A stretch of 64,000 bases of DNA, from assembly GCA_002256935.1 (NCBI GenBank), contig NCGL01000006.1, positions 1 through 64,000 on the forward strand, in the 5' to 3' direction. The DNA is from Bdellovibrio sp. 28-41-41. GTDB taxonomy: Bacteria > Bdellovibrionota > Bdellovibrionia > Bdellovibrionales > Bdellovibrionaceae. Both the position numbers and the translations under genes were made by a program. Numbering within the stretch: the stretch's first letter is position 1; each line of letters begins with the position of its first letter. Positions 49,700 to 61,029 of the stretch are shown here, piece by piece. Below the pieces are notes generated by a model, which was not told the DNA's origin, did no database searches, and saw only the letters and a list, made by a program, of their open reading frames with translations.

Positions 49700-49849
49700 A
49701 TCGGCATGATCGTGGGGGAGTTAAAATAAATTCTCTTGTTGGCTGTCTAATAAATCGACAAAAGTACGGGAAAAAAAGCCCGAAAAATGGTCTAGCTAGC
49801 ATAAAGTTGGATGCTTTAATCCCCGAATAAAGTGGGGGCTAGGAAAAGG

Positions 49850-50692
49850 ATGAATATGGTTAAAAACTATTTCGTGAGTAAAAATAATCAGCAGATCGGG
49901 CCGTTTTCTGAGGATGATGTGATTGGTAAGATCAAATCCAAAGAAATCAGCTGGATGGATTACATTTACGATGAAGCCAAAAAAGACTGGGTAATCATTG
50001 TCGAGCATAAGGCATTTAATAAGTTATTTACAGAAAGCGTATTAAAGCATTCGGTTAATGATCCTATGTTAAATAAGACTCCAAAGAATGTAGATTCGTC
50101 TGCCGCTGACTCTATCAAAGAGAAGGCTTGGTATGTTTTAAAAGACAATAATAACTATGGTCCGTTTTCTAAAGCTGAAGTCATTCAAATGCTACAGGCA
50201 AAAATCCTGTATGAATACGATTTCTTATGGCAACCGGAAATGGCAAGCTGGAAGCGTCTGGCCGAAATCGAAGATTTTTCTAGAGCTAATTTAAAGACAC
50301 TAATTCAAAGTGGTGATCCTACGATTTCGGAAATATTCTTCCGTCGACGTAACGTGCGTGTGATGTACGGTTGTTCTTTGATTGTTCATAATAACAAGCA
50401 AATATTTAAAGGTCGCAGTTTAGAGATTAGCTCTGGCGGTGCCGGTGTGTATATTGATACTAATCAATTTACTCCGGGTCAGAACTTGTTCTTACATTTT
50501 CAGCCGGGTGATGGCGTGCCTCCGTTCAATGCGGTTTGCACAATTATCAGCAAGGAATTTCATTCGCATCCAATTAATAAAATTAATGAGTTTAAGTACG
50601 GAGTGAAATTCACGAGCATCAGCCAAAACATAAAACAAAAGATTCAAGAGTTTGCTGAAAAAGAAATGATTCAGCGTAAGAAGGTTGCGTGA
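49850..50692 (+). CDS. GYF_2-GYF_2-PilZ protein
   Basis: Two GYF_2-type domains in order (YFVSKNNQQIGPFSEDDV and WYVLKDNNNYGPFSKAEVI), each followed by a Trp-containing tail, then a PilZ domain with RRRNVR at about residue 175 and LEISSGGAGV. The RxxxR and D/NxSxxG elements of PilZ are nearly intact (E for D/N), so c-di-GMP binding is plausible. No membrane segment. ATG 49850 with AGGA upstream is taken; ATG 49856 is also possible. It overlaps the next lipoprotein gene by four bases. Confidence 0.8.
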   Translation: MNMVKNYFVSKNNQQIGPFSEDDVIGKIKSKEISWMDYIYDEAKKDWVIIVEHKAFNKLFTESVLKHSVNDPMLNKTPKNVDSSAADSIKEKAWYVLKDNNNYGPFSKAEVIQMLQAKILYEYDFLWQPEMASWKRLAEIEDFSRANLKTLIQSGDPTISEIFFRRRNVRVMYGCSLIVHNNKQIFKGRSLEISSGGAGVYIDTNQFTPGQNLFLHFQPGDGVPPFNAVCTIISKEFHSHPINKINEFKYGVKFTSISQNIKQKIQEFAEKEMIQRKKVA

Positions 50693-51651
50693 AGATTTGG
50701 CTGTTATTACCACTGCTATTGTTAATCGGATGCTCAAACGGTGTTGAATTTAATGTGGCTGAAACCAGCCAGAATTTTGCACAAGATGTAAAATACAATC
50801 GCACGCTCGACATCCTATTTGTTATCGATAATGGCCAATCGATGAATATGGTTCAAAAGCAATTGCATGATCAATTGCCTTATCTTTTTGATTCTCTTCA
50901 CGACCTAGACATGGATATTCATATCGCAACGACTTCAATGACCATGTTAAGCAGCTTTCCAGAAAGTGGCAAACTAATGGGAACTCCAAAGTACATCACA
51001 ATGGATACACCTAATTTCGTAGAAGAATTGAAAAAAAGAATCTTCATTGGCGAGAACGGATCGACTCTAGAAGAAGGATTTGGTGCGATGGAAGCCGTAT
51101 TATCTGAATCGTATCGAAATGCAGAAGGCAAAGGCTTCCTTCGTGATGATTCGTTCTTGAATATCATCGTACTTACAAACGAAGACGACAAAAGCGCTAA
51201 GCCATGGAATTACTATGCGAGTATGCTTGATAAGCTAAGACCTAATCATACCGATGGAACTAAAGCTTGGACTATGAATTTTTTCGGAGTCCTATCTCAA
51301 CAGGATAATTGCAGCAGTTCAGAGTGGGGTTTCAAAGAACCTGGAGTAAAATTCATGGAAGCTGTGACTTATTCCGGCGGGATCAGTGGATCATTGTGTG
51401 GAAACGATTTATATCGTTCCGTTTCAACGATCAAAGCTCGCATTATTCAAATTCTTACAGATTACAAATTGGATCGTAAACCAAAGGTGGATACCATTCG
51501 TGTCTATGTTGCGGGACTTGAAGTTCCAAAGAACGATTCCAACGGGTGGAGCTATCTTGCGACAGAGAATTTGATTCGTTTCAACGGATCAGCCGTACCT
51601 GGCGCTGAACAAGGCATTCGTGTCGATTTTCTTCCTGACGAAGCTAATTAG
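50689..51651 (+). CDS. Lipoprotein with von Willebrand A-like domain
   Basis: A 320-residue lipoprotein with lipobox LLIGC (residues about 11-15). From about residue 40 the sequence LDILFVIDNGQSMNMVQ is the first strand and MIDAS loop of a vWA domain, with D-x-G-x-S in place of D-x-S-x-S; LTNEDDKSAK is the third part. An envelope adhesion or complex-building role is likely. GTG start overlaps the GYF-PilZ gene by four bases, so the two are coupled. Confidence 0.75.
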   Translation: MKIWLLLPLLLLIGCSNGVEFNVAETSQNFAQDVKYNRTLDILFVIDNGQSMNMVQKQLHDQLPYLFDSLHDLDMDIHIATTSMTMLSSFPESGKLMGTPKYITMDTPNFVEELKKRIFIGENGSTLEEGFGAMEAVLSESYRNAEGKGFLRDDSFLNIIVLTNEDDKSAKPWNYYASMLDKLRPNHTDGTKAWTMNFFGVLSQQDNCSSSEWGFKEPGVKFMEAVTYSGGISGSLCGNDLYRSVSTIKARIIQILTDYKLDRKPKVDTIRVYVAGLEVPKNDSNGWSYLATENLIRFNGSAVPGAEQGIRVDFLPDEAN

Positions 51652-55984: not shown

Positions 55985-56104
55985 CCGTTACACAAAAAAA
56001 ACTGTACAGTTTATTATCAGTGTTAGTTTTGTTGACGGCTAGGTACAAACTAGCTGTCGTTCGACCGGTGCCGCATTTGCAATCCCTAATGTATGGGGGT
56101 TTTA

Positions 56105-56929
56105 ATGTCGCTGAAGAACAAAATATTGTATTTGTTTTTGTCAGGTTTGATGGTTGTCTCATTTCAGAACTGTGGTCAAAATGGTTCGGTCGGTTTAGAA
56201 ACCCAAGACTTAGGCAAACTCGCAGCAAGCAGTACTGATTTAGTAGATGTTTCAGATGGCAGTGATGTTCAAGCTCCTCCCGCAGACGCAGATGATGACA
56301 GTGATGTTAAGCCACCTGTAGTTATCCCTCCAAAAGATGGTCCTAGAGGCGGCGGCAGTTGCGATGATCGCGATGACGACGACACAAGGGACATTGTGGA
56401 TGCCGATGATGACGGTAATGTAAAAGGCATGAAAATCAGCTGTGCGGATTTGCTAAATGATAGATTCAGCTTGCTGCCTGGCTCAAGCAAATCAAGTTTC
56501 CAAAACACACGCGGATTTTTAAAAGTAGAAAACAAAGATGAAGTGAGTGTCGTAAATCATCGCGGTTTGTTGATCTTAAATAATATCAAAAGTATTTCAA
56601 AAATTGATAACGTCCGCAGCTTATTGATACGCGCGGGTGCGCAGTCGATTAAACAAATTAATAACGTGCGTGCATTATCATTGATCGATTCAAAAAGTAT
56701 CGAATCGGTATCGAATTATCGCGGTTTAGGCTGCTTAAGCGCCAGCGTAGGCGTGATTGAAAACTATCGAGGAATCCTTGAAATCAAAGGCGATTTAGTC
56801 TCAGTAAAAAACTTTAGAGGAATATTAAAAGTCGACGGCAATGTCGGATCAATAGAAAACTTCCGAGGAATATTAGTAGTTTCAGGAAGTGTAAAATCGA
56901 AAAAAGACGTGAAAGTAAGTAACCCATAA
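56105..56929 (+). CDS. Lipoprotein with eight N-x-R-G beta-solenoid-like repeats
   Basis: ATG 56105 with GGGGG five bases ahead gives a lipoprotein with lipobox-like VVSFQNC (residues about 17-23). An acidic Asp-rich region follows (DDDSDVKPPVVIPPKDG, DDRDDDDTRD). From about residue 135, eight repeats of 16-18 residues start with N-x-R-(G/S/A): NTRGFLKV, NHRGLLIL, NVRSLLIR, NVRALSLI, NYRGLGCL, NYRGILEI, NFRGILKV and NFRGILVV. Such repeats could build a right-handed beta solenoid on the cell surface. No known family recognised. Confidence 0.75.
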   Translation: MSLKNKILYLFLSGLMVVSFQNCGQNGSVGLETQDLGKLAASSTDLVDVSDGSDVQAPPADADDDSDVKPPVVIPPKDGPRGGGSCDDRDDDDTRDIVDADDDGNVKGMKISCADLLNDRFSLLPGSSKSSFQNTRGFLKVENKDEVSVVNHRGLLILNNIKSISKIDNVRSLLIRAGAQSIKQINNVRALSLIDSKSIESVSNYRGLGCLSASVGVIENYRGILEIKGDLVSVKNFRGILKVDGNVGSIENFRGILVVSGSVKSKKDVKVSNP

Positions 56930-56960
56930 AAAAAAGCCCTCACGGAAAAAAGTGAGGGCT
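56927..56960 (-). terminator. Intrinsic terminator for the minus-strand subtilase gene
   Basis: AGCCCTCAC (56935-56943) and GTGAGGGCT (56952-56960) form a perfect 9-bp stem. On the minus strand it is followed by eight T (56934-56927), so it stops transcription of the subtilase; it may work for both directions. Confidence 0.8.
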
Positions 56961-56994
56961 CTATCGAAGACCCTGGGGCCAGAACCTGGTGTAA

Positions 56995-58467
56995 CTAGTA
57001 CTTCATCAAATTCACAAGATTCAACTTCCCACCGCTAGATACTTTCCCTTTAAGTGAAGAAATCGGTGCTGCTGAATTCAAAATAGCAGCCTTAACTTCT
57101 GCCATTGTTTTGTCAGGATACTGTGCCCAGTACAGAGCCGCTGCGCCCGCAACATGGGGAGCCGCCATACTTGTTCCTTCCCAAACCGCTAAGAATGGAA
57201 TCGGTTGATCCGAGTATTTTCCACCAACCACTGTGCTGTAAATTTTCACGCCGGGAGCGCCGATGTGAACTGTTTTAACGCCGTAGTTTGAGAATTTACC
57301 TAATTGGTTTTTCGTATCAATCGCAGCGACGCTGATGATATTTGAGTAAGGGTAACTAGCCGGATACGCTGGACGAGCCGCTGTATCATTGTCATAACCT
57401 TTGCCTTGAAAGCCGTTACCAGCGGCTACGATAAACAACACACCTTTAGATTCAGCATACTGAATCGCATCGCGAAGAGCTTTGTTTTCTGTTGGTTCAC
57501 TTGCATCTTCGCCCATTGAGCCCCACGAGTTATTTAAAACTTTTGCGCCATTATCAACTGCGTAGCGAATCGCTTTGATTGCTGCTGAAGTCACGCCCGT
57601 GCCTTTTTCAGAAATAAATCTAAGCGCCATGATTTGTGCATTGGGAGCCACGCCCGAAATACCTAAACCATTGTTGCCACGAGCTGCAATATTTCCCGCA
57701 CAGTGAGTTCCGTGACCTGGGTTGCCGCCGCCTAAAAGTAATTGCCATGCGGCCACTGATTTATCATAAGGAAGTGAATCGTTCCCTGCGAAATCATAGC
57801 CAACTACGTCATCAACATAGCCGTTACCATCGTCATCAATTTTGTTGGTTGCTTTGTCTCTGCCTTGTGCATCTTTTCCAGTTTCGCCCGGATTGCGCCA
57901 CATGTTGGGCACTAAATCGGGGTGAGTGTAATCAACGCCCGAATCGATCACGGCCACTACGATTGTTTTGTTGTTTTTAGCCACTGGCCACATTTGAGTT
58001 GCGCCCATGTCGAGCATGCCCCATTGTTTGTTTATTAAAGGATCGCGAGCGGCGCCTGAGTTTGGTGATTGAGGAATTAAAGGGTTATCACCTTTAGCTT
58101 TGGCCATAAGCTGTGGGTTTTTCATCAAGTAGTCCATTACTTGAGCCTTTTGGTCTTGGCCATCCGCTTTAAATGTTTCGATTAGACCCAATTCATAATC
58201 GGGCTGAACGTACTCGATATTTTGATTCTTTAGTAATGGAGCTGATGCGGCATTTTTGCCCGACACTAGAACCATTTGTTCTGTGATGACCTCTACTTTT
58301 TGGTCGGCATTGGCTTTGGTGCCCGACATAACCGACTTTTTCATCGCGGTCTGTAGGTCGCGAGTCGATTTGAACTTCACTAGATAATTGATTTGTTTGC
58401 TTTCCAAAGTTTGCGAGAAACTTGGTATAGCGATGGCGATAGCTGCTAAAATTAATAGAGCTTTCAT
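56995..58467 (-). CDS. Secreted subtilisin-like serine protease
   Basis: A 490-residue protease: signal peptide (MKALLILAAIAIAIPSFS), an inhibitor-I9-like propeptide (YLVKFKSTRDLQTAMKK) and an S8 catalytic domain with Asp in VVAVIDSGVDYTHPDL, His in GHGTHCAGNIA and Ser in GTSMAAPHVAGAA. NNSWG carries the oxyanion Asn. It should be secreted and active after propeptide removal. AAGGAGGG lies four bases before the ATG. A terminator follows at 56927-56960. Confidence 0.95.
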   Translation of the reverse strand: MKALLILAAIAIAIPSFSQTLESKQINYLVKFKSTRDLQTAMKKSVMSGTKANADQKVEVITEQMVLVSGKNAASAPLLKNQNIEYVQPDYELGLIETFKADGQDQKAQVMDYLMKNPQLMAKAKGDNPLIPQSPNSGAARDPLINKQWGMLDMGATQMWPVAKNNKTIVVAVIDSGVDYTHPDLVPNMWRNPGETGKDAQGRDKATNKIDDDGNGYVDDVVGYDFAGNDSLPYDKSVAAWQLLLGGGNPGHGTHCAGNIAARGNNGLGISGVAPNAQIMALRFISEKGTGVTSAAIKAIRYAVDNGAKVLNNSWGSMGEDASEPTENKALRDAIQYAESKGVLFIVAAGNGFQGKGYDNDTAARPAYPASYPYSNIISVAAIDTKNQLGKFSNYGVKTVHIGAPGVKIYSTVVGGKYSDQPIPFLAVWEGTSMAAPHVAGAAALYWAQYPDKTMAEVKAAILNSAAPISSLKGKVSSGGKLNLVNLMKY

Positions 58468-58807: not shown

Positions 58808-59350
58808 ATGGCCGATAAAAGTGTTGACGAACTGTCACGTTCTTTTGCGTTCACAACCAAATTGGATGCGATCGTCGCCTGGGGTAGAAAAAATGCATTG
58901 TGGCCATTGCCTTACGGTACTGCCTGCTGTGGTATTGAATTGATGAGCGTTATGGGTCCACGTTATGACTTAGCTCGTTTCGGAGCGGAAGTTGTTCGTT
59001 TCAGCCCACGCCAAGCGGACTTACTTCTTGTGGCGGGTACGATCACAGAAAAAATGGCACCCATCTTGGTTCGTATTTACGAACAAATGCTAGAACCAAA
59101 ATATGTTCTTTCTATGGGGGCGTGTGCAAGTTCCGGTGGTTTCTATCGCGCGTACCACGTACTTCAAGGCGCTGATAAAGTTATCCCAGTTGATGTTTAC
59201 GTTCCTGGTTGCCCTCCAACTCCGGAAGCGGTGTTAGATGGTATCATGTTGTTGCAACGAATGATTGCTACGAATCAGCCTCGTCCTTGGCGCGACAACT
59301 GGAAAAATCCTTATGAAGCTAATCTTATTCAAGCAGGATCAGGCACATGA
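58808..59350 (+). CDS. nuoB: NADH-quinone oxidoreductase subunit B
   Basis: A 180-residue NuoB with the N2 4Fe-4S site: GTACCGIE, then MGACASSGG and [10 protein letters not shown], giving the Cys-Cys-Cys-Cys pattern. It receives electrons near quinone. First gene of the operon; nuoA is not upstream. ATGA overlap with nuoCD. Confidence 0.97.
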
Positions 59351-61029
59351 ATCGCATTGAAGAATTAAAAAGTGATTTAGATAAACATTTCAACACCAAC
59401 CAATATCGCTTTTCGCATGCGGTAGGTGATGATGTTTTAGAAATTCCAAAAGAAGACGTAATTCCAGTTTTGCGCCATTTGAAAGTAAATCAAAAATTTG
59501 ATTTCTTAATGGACGTATGCGGAGTGGATTTTCCAAATCGTGAAAAGCGTTTTGATGTGGTGTATGCTTTATTCTCGTCTCGTGATGGTCGTCGCTTGCG
59601 TGTGAAAACTCAGCTAGCCGATGGCGATCATGTGGAAACGGCTACTAAAGTTTGGAAAGGGGCTGACTGGTTTGAGCGTGAAGCTTATGACATGTTCGGT
59701 ATTCGGTTCCAAGGTCACCCTAATTTAAGAAAAATTTTAACTCATCATCAGTTCCAAGGTCATCCTCTTCGTAAAGACTACGAAGCCGATCGCCAACAAC
59801 ACTGCACTGATGTTTTACCAGTTCATTTTGATAACGATGGTGATGAGCGCGGCGACGTGTTGAATGAAAATCTAGTTCCGATCAACATCGGTCCGTCACA
59901 TCCAGCGATGCACGGAACATTGCGTGTGATGGCTGAATTGGATGGCGAGACTATTGTGCGCGCGAATTGCGAAATTGGTTTCTTGCACCGTTGTTTTGAA
60001 AAAATGGCGGAAACTCATCCGTACAATCAAGTTATCCCGTACACAGATCGTTTGAATTACTGTTCGGCACCAATGAATAACGTTGGTTACTGCAAAACAG
60101 TCGAGCGTCTTTTAGGAATTGAAATTCCACCTAAAGCGCAGGCGATGCGTGTTATTCTTTGCGAACTTTCTCGTATTATCGATCACATTATTTCTGTTGG
60201 TACTGGCGGCGTGGATTTAGGTGCCTTAACGGCGTTCTTCCATTTGTTCACGTACCGTGAAAAAGTGTACACGTTATTTGAACGTCTTTGCGGCGCTCGC
60301 CTAACGGTTTCGATGACTCGCGTAGGTGGCATGGCTCAAGATGCACCCGATGGCTGGTTCGATGAAGTCATGGCATTCTGTAAAGAAATGCGCGTGGCAG
60401 TTGATGAAATCGATCGTTTGTTTATTTCTAATAAAATCTTTATCAAACGTACTCAAGGTGTTTCTCCCGTTACGGCGGCTGAAGCGATTTCTTGGGGATA
60501 CACTGGTCCTCTATTAAGAGCGTGCGGTGTGAATTTAGATTTACGTAAGACATCTCCTTACTATGGATACGATGGTTTAAATTTTGACGTTCCAGTAGGT
60601 ACAAACGGCGACATCTATGATCGTTACTTAGTTCGTATAGAAGAAATGAAACAAAGTATCCGTATCATTGAACAAGTTTGCAAAAACGTACCAGGCGGTG
60701 ATTACACAGTTCGCGATAAAGGTATCGTTCTTCCTGAAAAGAAAGACGTGTACGGAAATATCGAAGGTTTGATGAATCACTTCATGCTTGTGATCAAAGG
60801 CTTACGTCCGCCTGTCGGCGAAGTTTACGATGCAACAGAAGCCGCTAATGGCGAGCTTGGTTTCTACTTAGTCAGCGATGGTTCAGCGAACCCATACCGC
60901 CTAAAAGTAAGACCACCATGCTTTGCGATTTACCAATCGTTCCCATCAGTCGTTAAGGGAATTATGTTAGCGGACGCGATTGCAACTGTAGCCAGCATGA
61001 ACGTTATTGCCGGCGAATTAGATAGATAA
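59347..61029 (+). CDS. nuoCD: NADH-quinone oxidoreductase fused subunits C and D
   Basis: A 560-residue fusion. Residues 1-about 165 are NuoC ([29 protein letters not shown]), and from about 170 NuoD ([66 protein letters not shown]). These peripheral-arm parts form the quinone site. E. coli also has a fused nuoCD. Starts four bases inside nuoB. Confidence 0.96.

Follow-up and report, generated by a model that had tools for sequence, protein, structure and literature searches.

A putative beta-solenoid lipoprotein of Bdellovibrio and its unnamed family in Bdellovibrionota

The window (the whole 64,000-nucleotide stretch of DNA analyzed here) carries a gene for a putative lipoprotein with eight short repeats in its C-terminal part. 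A longer form of the open reading frame (56093..56929, + strand, 278 aa) uses an alternative start at 56093, but the ATG at 56105 is the likelier start because GGGGG lies just upstream of it, at 56095-56099. Residue numbers (C27, C117, and C214) follow the 278-aa form. The features of the locus are as follows.

56105..56929, + strand: coding sequence of a putative beta-solenoid lipoprotein, 274 aa, from the ORF call and orthologs in four congeneric genomes
56105..56173, + strand: signal peptide ending in the lipobox-like VSFQNC, from the sequence; this type of box recurs in the family
56174..56440, + strand: low-complexity acidic linker containing Pro and Gly, with 12 D/E versus 4 K/R in its first 59 residues; its length is variable family-wide
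56441..56443, + strand: conserved N-cap cysteine C117, from family comparison
56504..56905, + strand: eight predicted solenoid turns N-x-R-(G/S/A) of 16-18 aa each, from a motif scan and the AlphaFold2 model
56732..56734, + strand: conserved mid-solenoid cysteine C214 in turn 5 (NYRGLGCLSA), at an outward repeat position, from family comparison
56933..56962, no strand assigned: GC-rich hairpin in the gap between two convergent genes, preceded on the + strand by an A run and carrying a T run on the - strand

The hairpin is statistically weak (one found versus 1.0 expected by chance) and sits directly after the stop codon; it is probably a bidirectional terminator for both convergent genes. The neighbors of the solenoid gene are an acyl-CoA dehydrogenase, a 2-oxoacid oxidoreductase, a subtilase, and Nuo genes. 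Two congeners have these in the same order and a third has part of it; in a fourth, the gene is placed elsewhere. These neighbors suggest no function for the solenoid protein. The subtilase (56995-58467; PF00082, 194.9 bits) is convergent with the solenoid gene and is its neighbor in two other congeners. At 59347-61029, NuoC and NuoD are apparently fused in a single 560-aa ORF, which is conserved in two congeners. An ORF pair at 49832-51651 encodes a protein with two GYF_2-like segments and a PilZ-like end, followed by a lipoprotein (LIGC) with a vWA-like D-x-G-x-S start; a pair of this type recurs near the solenoid gene in genome G063 (L096:3100-4898).

The repeats start at nucleotides 56504, 56555, 56609, 56663, 56714, 56762, 56810, and 56858, with successive spacings of 17, 18, 18, 17, 16, 16, and 16 aa. 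When the residues that follow the lipobox cysteine were shuffled 20,000 times, no shuffle had more than three motifs, versus eight in the real sequence, which confirmed the original prediction of eight N-x-R-(G/S/A) repeats of 16-18 aa. That prediction had also described the last four repeats as nearly equal in length (16 residues) and alike. The spacing is 16 residues in the last three intervals, and the likeness is confined to repeats 6-8, whose amino acid identity is 46-66%, compared to 26-40% between repeat 5 and repeats 6-8.

The proposed recent growth of the array was not supported. Full-length orthologs (37-73% identity) are found in four other species of the genus, and all four have eight turns with the same spacings, except that the interval between repeats 5 and 6 is 17 rather than 16 in two of them. 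The number of repeats among relatives is thus stable within the genus, which argues against growth. Furthermore, when each repeat was compared with those of another species, its best match had the same place in the array in 136 of 160 comparisons. At the DNA level, repeats 6-8 of the window gene are 58-67% identical, about half of their shared residues are encoded by differing codons, and a DNA repeat search of the gene returned a single 14-nt pair. Recent expansion was rejected on these grounds; positional matching, conserved turn number, and DNA divergence together indicate that the array is older than the split of these species. A profile search of the assembly of one further congener (G062) found no copy of the gene.

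AlphaFold2 was run on the 166-residue C-terminal part with an alignment of two sequences, the window protein and one ortholog. The model (mean pLDDT 88, pTM 0.79) contains a low-confidence short helix at residues 5-13, followed by almost unbroken beta structure at residues 23-163; the N-cap region is of low confidence (pLDDT 53-63). Foldseek comparison of the model with the PDB gave nothing significant (best E 0.24), and a sequence search of the PDB gave no relevant match. The best overlaps found by VIA-align were all with beta-solenoids (3p4g, 4yei, 4peu, 3du1, and 4kh3), over 145-157 residues at Z of about 10-11 and rmsd of about 2.6-3.7; the individual scores were Z 11.2 and rmsd 2.6 for 3p4g, Z 11.1 and rmsd 2.7 for 4yei, and Z 10.9 and rmsd 2.9 for 3du1. 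Prediction gives good support to a beta-solenoid fold of the repeat domain, in which each repeat makes one turn of the stack of parallel strands, and the model and these overlaps bear out the earlier suggestion of one solenoid turn per repeat. The likeness to solved solenoids is a generic fold resemblance and carries no functional meaning.

A tally of 228 repeats across the family placed hydrophobic residues at positions -2, 5, 7, and 12. It gave G at position 3 in 184, N at position 0 in 122, and R at position 2 in 73 of the 228, frequencies that describe the motif rather than test it, since the pattern used presupposed parts of it. These frequencies make the N..G corner the core of the structure and R a feature at the level of the genus; the N-x-R-G unit as first described thus holds family-wide in its N and G but not in its R. 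Judged by its position, R should point outwards.

The window protein is covered by no Pfam, NCBIfam, or PHROG model, and literature searches found no paper on a solenoid lipoprotein or on FQNC in Bdellovibrio, in agreement with the initial impression that no named family has such a unit. A family profile built from 16 domains was searched in 369 Bdellovibrionota genomes and matched 35 of them, from five families (f1, f7, f9, f11, and f26); many of these had not been part of the training set. In the genome of the window it matched the window gene only, although a genuine bactofilin is encoded elsewhere, so the profile does not take any solenoid. At least 43 family ORFs were collected from the 35 genomes. 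This count underestimates the family, since short forms (L010, for example) look related yet score under the threshold; the ORF at L010, on the reverse strand, encodes an FQNC-leader lipoprotein with LVVLCGFAEVEGLDSVQGKVIVVGGRV, like the short solenoid forms. A recurring architecture of leader, acidic linker, cysteine, and solenoid is found in the 43 ORFs. The leader is lipobox-like in 42 of them, the linker is usually acidic or Pro-rich, and the number of turns is variable. By sequence comparison, these proteins constitute an unnamed, uncharacterised family scattered through Bdellovibrionota.

Searches outside Bdellovibrionota compared peptide seeds with genome contigs, phages, plasmids, and viral contigs. 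A mobile or phage origin was rejected, as the window protein had no match in viral contigs and two different queries had none in phages and plasmids; a search for anti-phage defence found none. The weak tblastn matches L017 and L026 are unrelated CheW-like proteins with N-L-R-G by chance, and L024 is also unrelated.

In the window protein, C27 is the putatively lipidated cysteine. Its box, VSFQNC, has N at -1, compared to A, G, or S in the textbook lipobox. The leader could be resolved in 40 members, of which 27 have FQNC, four YQNC, and one FQSC; the remaining eight have a more canonical box (LTGC, LIGC, FLGC, FVGC, LSAC, LTAC, or LSSC). Tandem paralogs in G263 and G264 pair one FQNC member with one LIGC or FVGC member, and this interchange is the best evidence for F-Q-N-C as a lipidation site. 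The proposal of a lipobox followed by an acidic linker is therefore retained as a secreted, putatively lipid-anchored architecture, with the linker recurring in most members, but the lipobox itself is non-canonical.

Many exported proteins of the same genome that are otherwise unrelated (e.g., L071, L079, L081, L085, L090, L091, L092, and L002) also have F-Q-N-C(S/G) at the end of their hydrophobic leader, and the pattern is found family-wide as well. This genome contains 51 TTYCARAAYTGY sites versus 16 for the reversed pattern, and eight of the 30 sites inspected lie at the end of an exported-protein leader. Lipoprotein predictors that require A, G, or S at -1 may miss proteins with such a lineage-specific box. 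At L097 (3421-4425 and 5230-7110) and L098 (3826-4785 and 5507-7424), paralogs of the solenoid lipoprotein have as neighbors members of a second FQNC lipoprotein family (IDLACG...SAQQSGLK) that is similar to L007 and L011; the cluster is conserved in two species.

At least two further cysteines are present in all 41 ORFs with an automatically found leader. Typically, one directly precedes the solenoid, and the other sits in a turn midway along it (G-x-x-C-(L/I/V)-S/A). The latter occupies repeat position 6 and, flanked by core positions 5 and 7, should face out. Within the family alignment, all 31 rows with a letter at the first site have cysteine there, as do 28 of 39 at the second. The two are usually separated by 97-124 residues in long forms, with 81 in two of them, and by 65-73 in most short forms, which indicates that subfamilies differ by whole turns. 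Such pairs probably form disulfides from cap to rod; in the window protein, C117 and C214 would staple the cap to the rod in this way. One subfamily (L104, L134, L135, L137, and L142) has, at the C-terminus of the solenoid, a further conserved pair of cysteines, GxxCLHxG followed after about 20 residues by a C at the extreme end.

Collectively, these results are best explained by an envelope-anchored, probably surface-exposed beta-solenoid binding protein, a reading that stands about an even chance of being right as a whole. The monocistronic gene would produce an exported lipoprotein that is lipid-anchored through C27 and continues into a flexible, acidic tether (about 90 residues), a small N-cap, and finally a rod of eight turns, about 8 x 0.48 nm or roughly 4 nm long. 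The N and G of each N-x-R-G would form the corner of a turn, with L, I, or V at repeat positions 5, 7, and about 12 as the core, while R would face out and in this genus form an arginine ladder along one edge. With C117 bonded to C214 in turn 5, the rod would most likely be shown from the outer membrane, where it would bind or adhere to a repetitive ligand, probably anionic; candidates are a glycan, LPS, or another envelope polymer. Against this reading, the arginine edge is not conserved family-wide, the box fails the textbook lipobox at -1, and the gene neighbors point to no function.

Three things suggest exposure on the cell surface and a repetitive ligand: the tether, a pilin-like fusion, and the precedent of Bd0875. 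The fusion is a 770-aa ORF of G035 (L151:631-2943) with the leader RRGFTVIDFMLACALAG..., which has D at +5 where E is usual, an Ig-like Big_9 domain (36.3 bits versus a cut-off of 23.6), and the family solenoid domain as its C-terminus. Its prepilin-like reading rests on the sequence itself because a Pfam search did not call the pilin segment; two neighboring ORFs (L152, 6869-8002 and 8006-8572) also have prepilin-like leaders. This fusion would provide a display context for the solenoid domain. In B. bacteriovorus, the lipobox MIDAS protein Bd0875 is an adhesin of the cell surface (PMC11003981); proteins anchored in this way are thus able to face outward in this bacterial group. A role of the solenoid family in surface binding is probable. 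Of the earlier claim of a surface lipoprotein, the anchored architecture holds, and the surface location itself is inferred. With matches in 35 of 369 genomes, the family is distributed patchily, so predation does not depend on it, which also counts against the binding reading. A bolder proposal, which we regard as unlikely, is an undescribed Bdellovibrionota-specific recognition module, disulfide-stapled and carried on lipoprotein tethers and prepilin-like carriers, in which outer-face variants (R, S, A, H, or K at the same edge) would set the surface binding of the predator.

The main rival to surface display is a periplasm-facing outer-membrane lipoprotein that would serve as a rigid scaffold or spacer and bind peptidoglycan or envelope proteins rather than prey or surfaces. 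The Lol pathway by default sorts lipoproteins to the inner leaflet, the disulfide-like cysteine pair suits an oxidising periplasm, and the genes are patchy and monocistronic, without an adhesin locus. However, long acidic or Pro-rich tethers of very variable length seem more typical of exposed domains, and the prepilin-like fusion in G035 also speaks for display, which leaves the periplasmic scaffold possible but somewhat doubtful. A different assembly, in which bactofilin-like solenoids would join at their ends by themselves and build filaments on or beneath the outer membrane, appears improbable. The ends of parallel beta-solenoids are able to stack, and the modeled window domain has windings of 16-18 residues, as do the repeats of BacM (PMC4372379). 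Yet the conserved N-cap cysteine suggests a capped end, which would block stacking, and the hydrophobic N-terminal leader ending in Cys is family-conserved, unlike in cytosolic bactofilins. A bactofilin match, which the original prediction had named as the result that would count against it, was sought and was absent: PF04519 gave no match at E<=10 for the window protein or at E<=1 for 16 relatives, it matched other loci only in the same genome, and hhalign with the bactofilin encoded there gave a probability of 0.2%. Bactofilin membership was therefore rejected, and no family model of Pfam, NCBIfam, or PHROG explains the repeat.

Least probable of all, and very much so, is a distant kinship with the YabP/YqfC sporulation proteins through the same turn. 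Sub-threshold matches, the best of the protein to any family model but far under the cut-offs, span one to three turns, with 19.7-22.4 bits for YqfC (TIGR02856; cut-off 77.8, best E 8.2e-5 at 22.4 bits) and 16-18 bits for YabP (PF07873; top 18.1, cut-off 27). However, only five of 16 members match, and in the window protein the coverage is 30-48 residues around the N-Y/F-R-G-I motif. Membership was rejected, the matches being local and below curated cut-offs. Furthermore, we know of no sporulation in Bdellovibrionota, which counts against the kinship, and to our knowledge the two profiles include no lipoprotein leader or cysteine pair.

The window protein defines an unannotated family, with 43 ORFs or more, in a phylum where little is known about the proteins that serve recognition at the cell surface, and it yields two testable structural hypotheses, the solenoid and the cysteine staple. 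Compared to known systems, the family shares with YabP/YqfC a local N-x-(R/K)-G-I turn over one to three repeats, while those proteins belong to Firmicute sporulation and their scores here fall under curated cut-offs. With bactofilins it shares the turn length, a parallel beta-solenoid of about six to eight windings, and a hydrophobic core with Gly turns; bactofilins are a cytosolic polymer, whereas the window family is a putative exported lipoprotein with a tether, a conserved cysteine pair, and an N-x-x-G corner. The Ca-dependent antifreeze protein 3p4g, the synthetic solenoid 4yei, and HetL (3du1) resemble the window domain in general solenoid topology over 145-153 residues (Z about 11), at 6-13% identity and without a common motif. 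Bd0875 is likewise a lipobox-anchored surface binding protein of the same bacterial group, but it has a vWA/MIDAS fold and no solenoid, and homology is not claimed. What is new is an unnamed family of a known fold class, which in its working resembles other beta-solenoid binding or scaffold domains.
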